The notes under the pieces: model-generated
Told to the model about the DNA's origin: nothing
Seen by the model: only the letters and a program-made list of their open reading frames with translations
Databases searched by the model: none
NCBI GenBank assembly: GCA_029225565.1
Contig: JAQXWS010000033.1
Span: 1 to 48,832, forward strand
DNA from: Eubacteriales bacterium
Lineage (GTDB): Bacteria > Bacillota > Clostridia > Oscillospirales > Acutalibacteraceae
DNA length: 48,832 nt
Direction: 5' to 3'
Shown here: positions 43,410-48,832 of the stretch, one piece after another
Numbering within the stretch: position 1 is the stretch's first letter
Layout: every line of letters starts with the position of its first letter
Program-made: the position numbers and the translations under genes

Positions 43410-46780
<3,371 letters not shown>

Positions 46781-46814
46781 GCTATTCCTCCCTGTCACTG
46801 AATACACTACATAT

Positions 46815-46843
46815 ATAATACCATATATCCATTGTATATTCAA
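46815..46843 (-). promoter_or_regulatory. Promoter of the transglutaminase-like gene
   Basis: TTGAAT (46843-46838), 17-bp spacer, TATTAT (46820-46815) on the minus strand. Confidence 0.6.
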
Positions 46844-46902
46844 ACAAATTTGTACTCACCAAATAAAAATTGCCAACAAAATCCAAAATTTTCAAATTAC
46901 CT

Positions 46903-46965
46903 ATTGACACAGCCAAAAAATAGGTGTATAGTGTCAATTAATAAAACCTACTTGTTTGGTAGGTT
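46903..46965 (+). promoter_or_regulatory. metY-cysK promoter with two dyads
   Basis: TTGACA (46904-46909), 17-bp spacer, TATAGT (46927-46932). ATTGACAC (46903-46910) and GTGTCAAT (46931-46938) are inverted across the promoter. Just after the expected start, AACCTAC (46945-46951) and GTAGGTT (46959-46965) form a second dyad with a 7-bp centre. It looks like an Rrf2-family (CymR/IscR-like) half-site pair, but it could also fold as an RNA hairpin. The binding protein is inferred only. Confidence 0.6.
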
Positions 46966-46985
46966 AATGTTCAGGAGGTAATGAT

Positions 46986-47060
46986 ATGACAAAAATACTT
47001 TTGTTGATAATCACTCATGACCAAAAAAATGACCGAATGCTTTGTCGATGTTGCAAATAA
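46986..47060 (+). CDS. Cysteine-rich leader peptide (uORF) before metY
   Basis: A 24-codon ORF with the best SD in the region (AGGAGG at 46973-46978, 7 nt before ATG 46986). The peptide is hydrophobic at first (MTKILLLIITHD) and ends DRMLCRCCK before TAA at 47058. Three of its last five residues are Cys (TGT, TGT, TGC at 47043-47054), directly upstream of genes that make homocysteine and cysteine. This is the hallmark of a regulatory leader peptide whose translation reports Cys-tRNA supply. No intrinsic terminator lies between it and metY. Instead the segment overlapping its Cys codons can pair with the metY initiation region (47088-47098). An ATG at 46981 is only 2 nt from the SD and stops after two codons, so it is rejected. 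Confidence 0.75.
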   Translation: MTKILLLIITHDQKNDRMLCRCCK

Positions 47061-47098
47061 AATATAAACAGCGTATAATTTAGAAAGGACAAAGTATT
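47036..47098 (+). promoter_or_regulatory. Predicted helix sequestering the metY ribosome site
   Basis: AATGCTTTGTC (47036-47046, inside the uORF at Met-Leu-Cys) is complementary to GACAAAGTATT (47088-47098) over 11 consecutive positions, with a single G-U pair. The second strand covers the last two bases of the metY SD (AAAGGA, 47084-47089) and every base up to its GTG start. A ribosome stalled on the Cys codons would cover the first strand and free the metY start. Confidence 0.6.
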
Positions 47099-48382
47099 GT
47101 GAAAAATAATAAATATCATTTTGAAACCCTACAGCTCCATGTAGGACAGGAAAACCCGGACCCGGCTACCGACGCAAGAGCAGTACCCATATACCAGACA
47201 ACATCCTATGTGTTCCGTGACAGCGACCACGCACAGGCTCGCTTTAACCTAAGTGATGCAGGCAATATTTACGGCAGACTCACCAACTCGACCCAGGATG
47301 TGCTGGAGCAGAGAATCGCGGCGCTGGAGGGCGGAGTGGCGGCACTGGCAACAGCCTCCGGAGCGGCGGCGCTGGCATACACCTTTCAGGCGCTGGCTAC
47401 GGCAGGCGACCACATTGTAGCAGCCGAAACAATATACGGCGGCACATACAATTATCTGGCACACACATTTCCCCTGTCGGGAGTTACCACAACCTTTGTT
47501 GACCCGGACGACCTGAGCAATTTTGAAAAAGCGATACAGCCAAATACAAAGGCAATATTCTTTGAGACCCTGGGCAACCCCAATTCCAACCTGGTAGATA
47601 TTGAAGCGCTGGCAAAGATTGCCCACAGCCACAATATTCCGCTGGTGGTGGATTCCACATTTGCAACACCGTATCTGCTGCGTCCCATCGAGTACGGCGC
47701 AGACATCGTTGTTCATTCTGCCACAAAATTCATCGGCGGTCACGGTACAACGCTGGGCGGCGTAATAATTGACGGCGGCACCTTCGATTGGAAGGCAAGC
47801 GGCAAATTCGGCAACATCGCCGACCCCAACCCAAGCTACCACGGGGTCAGCTTTGTGGATGCTGTCGGACCGGCTGCATTTGTCACATATATCAGAGCGA
47901 TACTGCTGCGGGACACCGGCGCAACCATCAGCCCATTCAACGCATTTTTGTTGCTGCAGGGACTGGAAACCCTTTCTCTGCGAGTAGAAAGACATGTTGA
48001 GAACACAAAAAAGGTACTGGAATACCTATCCAATCATCCAAAGGTAGAAAAGGTGAATCACCCCAGCCTTGACAGCAGATACAAGGACTTGTACAACAAG
48101 TACTTCCCCAACGGAGCAGGCTCAATATTCACCTTTGAAATCAAGGGCGGAGAGACCGAGGCAAAAAGATTCATTGACCGTCTGGAAATATTCTCCATTC
48201 TGGCCAATGTGGCTGATGTAAAATCCCTGGTTATTCATCCGGCGACAACCACTCACTCACAGCTCAGCGCCCAGGAGCTGGAAAAGCAGAACATAAAACC
48301 AAACACAATCAGATTATCAATAGGCACAGAGCATATTGACGACATTCTCAGCGACCTGGAGCAGGCCTTTGAGGCAATATAG
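47099..48382 (+). CDS. metY: O-acetylhomoserine / O-acetylserine sulfhydrylase
   Basis: A 427-aa PLP enzyme of the Cys/Met metabolism family. [32 protein letters not shown] opens the MetY subgroup. The cofactor site includes [35 protein letters not shown] and the Schiff-base lysine K210 in [13 protein letters not shown]. The large insert [20 protein letters not shown] is typical of O-acetylhomoserine sulfhydrylases. It makes homocysteine (or cysteine) from the acetylated amino acid and sulfide. The start is GTG 47099 with AAAGGA about 9 nt upstream; GTG and the long spacing make initiation weak, which fits translational control by the leader ORF. cysK follows 9 nt later, so the pair is one operon. 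Confidence 0.95.
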
Positions 48383-48391
48383 GAGGACATT

Positions 48392-48832
48392 ATGGCACTA
48401 TACAAATCAGCTTTGGAGCTGGTGGGCAATACCCCACTGGTACAGGCAAGTAATTTCAGCAAGGCTAACGGACTTGACACCGATATTCTGGTAAAGGTAG
48501 AATACTTCAATCCGGCAGGCTCCGTAAAGGACAGAATAGCAAAGGCTATCATAGAGGATGCCGAGGCAAAGGGCATACTCACAAAAGACTCGGTTATCAT
48601 TGAGCCCACCAGCGGCAATACGGGTATCGGTCTGGCAAGCGTTGCAGCCAGCAAAGGCTACCGAATTATCATCGTTATGCCGGAGACCATGAGTGTTGAA
48701 CGCAGAATGATAATGAAGGCGTACGGCGCCGAATTGGTGCTTACCGAGGGCGCAAAGGGTATGAAGGGCGCCATTGCAAAGGCTGAAGAGCTGGCAAAGA
48801 AAACACCTAACTCATTCATTCCCGGTCAGTTT
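48392..48832 (+). CDS. cysK: Cysteine synthase (partial, runs off right edge)
   Basis: The first 147 codons of an O-acetylserine sulfhydrylase: LVGNTPLVQ near the start, the PLP lysine K46 in [23 protein letters not shown] (about 69-82), the phosphate-binding loop, and [25 protein letters not shown]. It condenses O-acetylserine with sulfide to cysteine. ATG 48392 has AGGAGG at 6-nt spacing and lies 9 nt after metY, so both are transcribed from the cysteine-leader promoter. The C-terminal half is outside the window. Confidence 0.96.

Follow-up and report, generated by a model that had tools for sequence, protein, structure and literature searches.

What a short open reading frame (ORF) does directly in front of a gene for sulfur amino acid synthesis, and which signal it might read, is the question raised by the metY locus at the end of the window, that is, the whole 48,832-nt stretch of contig JAQXWS010000033.1 from a Eubacteriales bacterium that was analysed here. 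A sequence-only reading of this DNA had described an 11-nt helix joining the last codons of the ORF to the start of metY, and had proposed that the helix closes and blocks metY when Cys-tRNA is ample, while scarce Cys leaves a stalled ribosome that holds it open. This interpretation is partly supported by the follow-up: the reading that we favour, with confidence a little above even, is a ribosome-dependent leader-peptide attenuator acting at translation, for which a signal of Cys alone is too narrow.

The metY leader of the window and its helix

The gene metY (47099..48382, + strand; GTG start) encodes an O-acetylhomoserine sulfhydrylase (TIGR01326, 619.7 bits against a cut-off of 495.1) and is followed by a cysK-like cysteine synthase gene (48392..48832, +; PF00291) truncated at the window end, whose partial protein has its best NCBIfam match in TIGR01139 cysK (196.6 bits, below the cut-off of 350.95). 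Because the gap between them is only 9 nt, the two genes probably form one operon. Upstream of metY, the sequence and the peptide profile both give a leader ORF of 24 codons (46986..47060, +) for the peptide MTKILLLIITHDQKNDRMLCRCCK, which has its own Shine-Dalgarno sequence (SD), AGGAGGT (46973..46979, +), and whose stop lies 38 nt before metY. Its second half holds the codon pair Arg17 (CGA)-Met18 (ATG) at 47034..47039 (+), followed by Cys20 (TGT), Arg21 (CGA), Cys22 (TGT), and Cys23 (TGC) at 47043..47054 (+); the SD of metY itself, AGAAAGGA, occupies 47082..47089 (+). The leader has no Rfam match, and a scan of the window for + strand terminators found none, in agreement with the earlier view that control here works without one. 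Further upstream on the minus strand, a large secreted protein with a transglutaminase-like look and fibronectin-like repeats (44957-46843) and an IMP dehydrogenase-like gene (43410-44882) were recognized by eye.

A promoter-like pair, TTGACA-17-TATAGT (46904..46932, +; 11 of 12 consensus matches), precedes the leader, and many homologous leaders have a readable −35/−10 pair like it in front of them. Near the presumed transcription start lies the inverted repeat AACCTACTTGTTTGGTAGGTT (46945..46965, no strand assigned), read from the sequence and found by pattern search at this sole place in its own genome within 3 mismatches. Judged by eye, similar repeats occur in homologues both with and without the leader ORF, and AACCTACTTGTTTGGTAGGTT is probably the operator of a repressor and distinct from the leader mechanism. 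Together with CCTATT...AATAGG over the −35 region, it flanks the promoter (46900-46965); such repeats are also present in some homologues devoid of the leader ORF, e.g., L012, L014, and L019, and are probably the operator of a sulfur regulator. A second promoter-like sequence, TTGCAA-17-TATAAT (47051-47079; 10 of 12 consensus matches), overlaps the end of the leader ORF, and a transcript from it, if made, could lack the leader.

The helix exists as described. Its 5' arm, AATGCTTTGTC (47036..47046, +), and its 3' arm, GACAAAGTATT (47088..47098, +), both read from the sequence and recovered by folding, are complementary throughout their 11 positions, one pair being G-U. The borders assigned to the arms earlier need slight extension: the first strand does comprise Met18, Leu19, and Cys20 but also takes in the third base of the Arg17 codon CGA and the first base of Arg21, and the second strand fills the whole spacer up to the base preceding the GTG but also reaches into the metY SD, taking up its final two bases (GA). 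This is the only helix of at least 9 bp with at most one G-U per nine pairs in 46939-47098, and it is present in both the minimum free energy and the centroid fold of 46939-47130 (−34.0 kcal/mol, z −2.05; 3 of 200 shuffles were equally stable).

A leader peptide family with a locked arginine codon

By its sequence, the window leader belongs to a family of peptides of the form MxxxFxxL[LV]RxNFRFGRM that precedes sulfur genes in the class Clostridia. A pattern search of the order matched 11 of 394 genomes, and ten loci among the matches listed were read together with L090, L187 being dropped as lying inside a gene. These leaders precede metY, cysK (L090, L184), and genes for a sulfate-binding protein (L182), a sulfate-type ABC ATPase (L188), and metQ (L189, L190); members of the family are also found before metN. 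The downstream names are backed by profile scans, some below the curated cut-off, for L182, L188, L189, L202, L090, L184, L229, L207, L208, and L220, the remaining genes being named by eye from their N-termini. With peptide profiles, the extent of the family grew to 56 of 247 genomes and 43 of 134 genera of the order (profile A1, 36 rows, E 0.05), to 35 of 323 genomes and 24 of 192 genera of the class (profile A2, 40 rows, E 0.02), and to 46 of 200 genomes and 35 of 107 genera of the taxonomic family (A2, E 0.02), the best E-value of the A2 searches being 2e-13. The window leader is matched in its genome by A1, of which it is row 1, at E 5e-5; A2, which does not have it among its rows, did not match it at E 0.02. 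At the level of the phylum, 3 of 299 genomes were matched at E 0.01, none convincingly: Arg-Met is missing from L306 and L307, and the L308 match falls within a larger ORF but out of its frame, so that an extension beyond Clostridia was rejected.

Those matches that were returned with a locus were read, 30 from the order search and 55 from the class and family searches, and after removal of the window's own leader, two without the motif (L248, L249), and three duplicates (L245, L260, L270), 79 distinct leaders remained. At the thresholds applied, Rfam, Pfam, and NCBIfam do not contain the family, and a search of the open-licence PMC literature, with subscription papers and preprints outside its scope, returned no description of motif or family, which thus appears undescribed so far. 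A known riboswitch, a T-box, or another Rfam RNA is ruled out as its identity, since neither the window leader nor the leader regions of 18 family loci gave such a match, the latter containing one tRNA only. In two metagenome-assembled genomes labelled Erysipelotrichaceae, T-box leaders stand right upstream of metY homologues (L046:2709-2943, L054:2290-2524). In L073, a contig labelled Eggerthellaceae (Actinomycetota), the leader DNA shares its CGAATGCTGTACTCCCGGGC stretch with L208 and is followed by terminator-like sequence; the contig is possibly misbinned.

All 79 distinct leaders from the profile searches write Arg17 as CGA. Because the profiles read amino acids only, this result is not built in, whereas Met18, likewise present in 79 of 79, partly is. 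The other conserved arginines are free in their codons: Arg10 (77/79) is written AGA 34, CGC 14, CGG 11, CGT 9, AGG 7, and CGA 2 times, and Arg14 (78/79) CGT 20, AGA 17, CGA 13, AGG 10, CGG 9, and CGC 9 times. CGA makes up 21 of 765 Arg codons in the genes downstream of the leaders, and 43 of 587 across 35 long ORFs of the window. The codon after Met18 (n = 79) is TGT in 25, TGA in 19, TGC in 18, TGG in 2, and another in 15, including TAA in 3.

This last position bears directly on the proposed Cys-tRNA signal. It fits the window, where Met18 and three Cys fall within codons 18-23, but 24 of the 79 leaders have no Cys codon after Arg17-Met18, so that Cys-tRNA is not the sole signal in the family and Cys-only sensing across it is ruled out. 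In the ancestral members, which end in LRxNFRFGRM and then stop, the sensor can only be Met18, the peptide, or the CGA codon.

Pairing of the leader with the metY start, and the place of the ribosome

Relatives upstream of metY were collected separately, through a MetY scan of genome contigs (80 loci kept of 468) and a genus search (MetY in 64 of 80 genomes), from which 115 leader entries were read, some of them near-duplicates. In 63 entries, a plausible ORF in front of metY contains CGAATG, L073 and L081 being excluded by hand, and 58 were left after five near-duplicates were dropped; since this genus set was collected via CGAATG, CGA conservation is circular in it, and the claim about the codon uses the 79 profile-found leaders only. 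Pattern searches for the CGAATG box in the own genome and the genus were too noisy for counting at 1-3 mismatches, the window leader being the sole zero-mismatch place in its genome. A further box B, CGATG(T/C), lies within 60 nt of CGAATG in 47 of the 58, and in all 47 the two boxes, A and B, share a frame, at nine different distances that are each a multiple of three. The start-to-CGA distance in this set is 16 codons in 30 of 58, 15 in 9, and 13 in 9, with the start unrecognised in 3. Many entries outside the genus set have neither box, and some without the ORF retain, by eye, the promoter and operator-like repeats. That the leader ORF is real, as the sequence-only reading had it, is borne out by the conserved family, its fixed start-to-CGA distance, and the in-frame boxes.

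No other species was found to have exactly this 11-nt helix; what recurs is pairing between the leader and the SD of metY. For the 58 leaders, the mean leader-SD pairing probability is 0.50, compared with 0.28 after synonymous recoding (Wilcoxon p 1.6e-5) and 0.30 when leaders are given the start regions of other species (p 2.9e-6), both p-values ignoring relatedness; 21 of the 58 stand individually at or below 5% against recoding, and 13 are predicted to pair at less than 0.1. The SD element GAAAGG is kept in 23 of them, the remainder having AAGGAG-like sites. Across 17 aligned leaders, the window included, TTTCG of the ORF lies opposite GAAAG of the SD, and in 16 of them a pyrimidine stands opposite the next G (G13), C in 9 and T in 7. 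Only the window leader departs from this, its pairing having moved to CTTTGTC:GACAAAG. The mean run of further pairs in this alignment is 3.06, a value that none of 2000 shuffles reach (relatedness ignored), and each of the two inner pairs is formed in only 8 of 17. In the L160-type clade, codons right before CGA are predicted to hide the SD nearly wholly (0.77-0.99 in the strongest members). The profile-found leaders behave alike: in the 75 of 79 analysed, the remainder being too long, mean SD pairing is 0.43 against 0.28 (p 1e-4, relatedness ignored), with 27 of the 75 below 0.1. The earlier claim that the last codons pair with the metY start thus stands for the group, in shifted register and above the group controls, but the window by itself does not rise above its synonymous control (0.38 against 0.28 recoded, a value reached by 25% of shuffles).

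The predicted leader partner of the SD is concentrated at −12 to −1 from CGA, where it is most frequent at −12 to −7, and it peaks again at +6 to +17, positions that would come under a ribosome paused at CGA. None of the predicted partners in the 75 leaders falls on CGAATG itself, by which conservation of CGA for pairing with the SD is ruled out.

For the window, the effect of a ribosome was modelled on the fold of 46939-47130. With 47030-47060 blocked, the unpaired probability of the spacer rises from 0.02 to 0.47, but SD accessibility falls from 0.64 to 0.41 and that of the GTG from 0.53 to 0.35, owing to alternative weak structures that arise. Opening 47080-47114 is predicted to cost 7.4 kcal/mol in the free RNA, 5.1 with a modelled ribosome on the Cys codons, 5.4 with one at Arg17, 7.2 with one at the stop codon, and 8.2 with one on the 5' half of the ORF. 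Masking the leader end is thus calculated to make the metY start cheaper to open by about 2.3 kcal/mol, in the direction supposed earlier and modest in size; the notion of a stalled ribosome that holds the start open survives in the opening cost and for the spacer, not for the SD. A modelled footprint on any of the three Cys codons covers the 5' arm.

Set out in full, the translational attenuator would work as follows. Once the ribosome has cleared the whole ORF, the 3' end of the leader would fold back on the metY SD and spacer, and metY-cysK would be translated poorly; a pause at CGA-AUG or at the directly following Cys codons would mask the 5' arm and allow metY to be translated. The likeliest trigger in the window would be a shortage of charged Cys-tRNA, possibly of Met-tRNA. 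Because all three Cys codons would put the 5' arm under the paused ribosome, a shortage of Cys-tRNA would be a natural trigger for metY-cysK. Slow decoding of CGA may lengthen the pause, as may the nascent chain LRxNFRFGRM in ancestral members.

A terminator follows the leader in L202 (read by eye), L207, and L208. In L202, it is predicted to form with a probability of 0.01 without a ribosome and 0.11 with one at the stop codon, but of 0.99 and 0.97 with one paused at CGA and AUG; the corresponding values for L208 are 0.00, 0.00, and 0.80 and 0.90, and L207 has a high probability, 0.86-0.98, in each of the five modelled states. For L202 and L208, a pause at CGA-AUG is thus predicted to favour the terminator (OFF), reversing the polarity of the SD-type leaders, and the direction of the stall in the sequence-only reading does not carry over to two of the three terminator-type members. 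Either the regulatory pause is not at CGA-AUG, later codons giving the expected sign in the models, or equilibrium folds mislead, or the two types respond differently. Confidence in the mechanism has been set with this conflict in mind.

Rival readings, the signal, and known systems

The rival that survives best, possible although well short of even odds, is arrest by the nascent chain: LRxNFRFGRM would stall the ribosome at CGA-AUG-(UGN), perhaps with Met, SAM, Cys, or homocysteine as co-effector, and the Cys codons would be a later addition in the window's branch. The family does show features like those of arrest peptides, in that Asn12 is invariant and the residues Arg10, Arg14, and Gly16 hardly ever change, while both of these arginines are written with each of the six codons. 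In 67 of 79 leaders, and likewise in the window, Arg17 comes 16 codons after the start; a stop directly follows Met18 in 22 of 79 (19 UGA, 3 UAA), and Cys codons are absent from many members. Yet the motif is eroded in the window's branch (THDQKNDRM), where leader and pairing persist, the codon conservation of Asn-Phe may partly serve anti-SD pairing (Phe13 is TTC in 49 and TTT in 12), and a pure peptide effect does not need Arg17 fixed as a codon.

Translational coupling only, in which ribosomes that complete the leader unfold the metY start and reinitiate there, no regulated pause being involved, while the promoter operator does the regulating, is unlikely. It would suit the short distance from leader stop to metY in the window and the operator-like repeats that flank the promoter, also in relatives without the leader ORF, but it leaves the invariant CGA codon and the conserved peptide unexplained. 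Very unlikely is a helix that arose by chance and has no role. Some such 11-bp helix appears anywhere in 23 of 1000 dinucleotide shuffles of the leader, and the exact helix is lineage-specific; against this, only 6 of 5000 dinucleotide shuffles form one between 47031-47060 and 47080-47101, and the group-level pairing controls point the same way. Chance had earlier been called unlikely outright, which holds for the two sites taken together, but the single sequence gives only about 0.02 (anywhere) to 0.001 (two spots). Hardly to be credited is the reading of CGAAUG(UG) as an RNA or DNA site for a trans-acting factor with an incidental ORF, as its six invariant bases, followed by TG in 64 of 79, stop exactly at codon borders (the third base of Gly16 varies: GGA 43, GGG 18, GGT 11, GGC 4), boxes A and B keep a common frame at varied distances, and the distance to the start codon is fixed.

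It may also be asked whether the CGA codon itself is the sensor, so that the leader would read sulfur or SAM state via arginine tRNA modification, and peptide and pairing would convert the speed of CGA decoding into sulfur-gene expression; we consider this improbable. Among 41 tRNA matches in the own genome (assembly 91% complete), the tRNA-Arg anticodons found are ACG, CCG, UCU, and CCU and none is UCG, so that CGA would need inosine wobble by tRNA-Arg(ICG). According to the parts of the sources consulted, E. coli tRNA-Arg(ICG) with 2-thiocytidine 32 (s2C32) does not wobble to CGA (PMC5372741), and V. cholerae decodes CGA less well once rlmN is lost (PMC12588516). The window's genome encodes a rhodanese domain fused to a TtcA-like tRNA thiolation enzyme (L317; 206 bits to NF007972, below the cut-off of 272), which could make this thiolation. 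The s2C32 polarity, with CGA slow when sulfur is rich, fits the terminator-type leaders (pause = OFF) and not the SD-type, for which a direct sulfur sensor via s2C32 was rejected as mismatched in polarity; the RlmN/SAM polarity fits the SD-type leaders.

Several known systems invite comparison. Canestrari and colleagues reportedly described, in Mol. Microbiol. in 2020, polycysteine leader ORFs of Mycobacterium that are leaderless. Unlike these, the window leader has its own SD and 5' UTR, and its Cys codons do not form one run (CRCC). The family further differs from them by the Arg(CGA)-Met core, the conserved peptide, its home in Clostridia, and its occurrence also before metY, metQ, and metN. 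In the section of a later paper that was consulted, the Mycobacterium ORFs, with Cys codons near their ends, stand before cysteine genes and act by translation attenuation (PMC13236596, citing Canestrari et al. 2020), a layout of short upstream ORF and late Cys codons shared by the window leader. Candidate cys leader peptides without terminators have been described in Actinobacteria by Seliverstov et al. 2005, in the portion of that study consulted, along with the LEU element, which includes a pseudoknot and in which the run of regulatory codons pairs with the leuA SD (PMC1262725). As far as this portion goes, the window leader resembles them as a Cys-codon leader without a terminator whose codons pair with an SD, and differs in phylum and in having a fixed CGA-AUG and a peptide motif in place of runs of Cys or Leu.

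In translation attenuators of the ErmC type, drug-induced arrest in a leader ORF frees a sequestered SD by a switch between two alternative hairpins. The logic by which a stall frees the SD is shared with what is proposed here, where metabolic genes and a direct leader-SD helix are involved. ErmC-like features seen here are a short ORF that immediately precedes the gene and carries its own ribosome site, and pairing of the leader ORF with the gene start region (little SD pairing in 13/58 and 27/75 leaders). TnaC arrests with tryptophan, a UGA coming right after its motif. The family likewise has a short conserved peptide, and many of its members end in UGA right after the motif; unlike in TnaC, one arginine is locked to a single codon. 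TnaC and other metabolite-sensing arrest peptides form the class for comparison (PMC8429421, as far as consulted). Classical transcription attenuation differs from the window, which has no + strand terminator, while L202, L207, and L208 do have terminators. T-boxes and SAM riboswitches are other controls of sulfur amino acid genes in Bacillota. The two metY homologues with a T-box, L046 and L054, carry it instead of the leader; the window leader and the leader regions of the 18 family loci have no match to such an RNA.

The leader peptide family appears to be new, whereas the kind of control, leader-peptide attenuation, is already known. If the reading is true, a large part of the class Clostridia, many gut bacteria included, would control its methionine and cysteine supply by a leader-peptide family. 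An arginine fixed as CGA beside conserved arginines that use all six codons makes it testable whether one synonymous codon, through its tRNA, works as a metabolic sensor.
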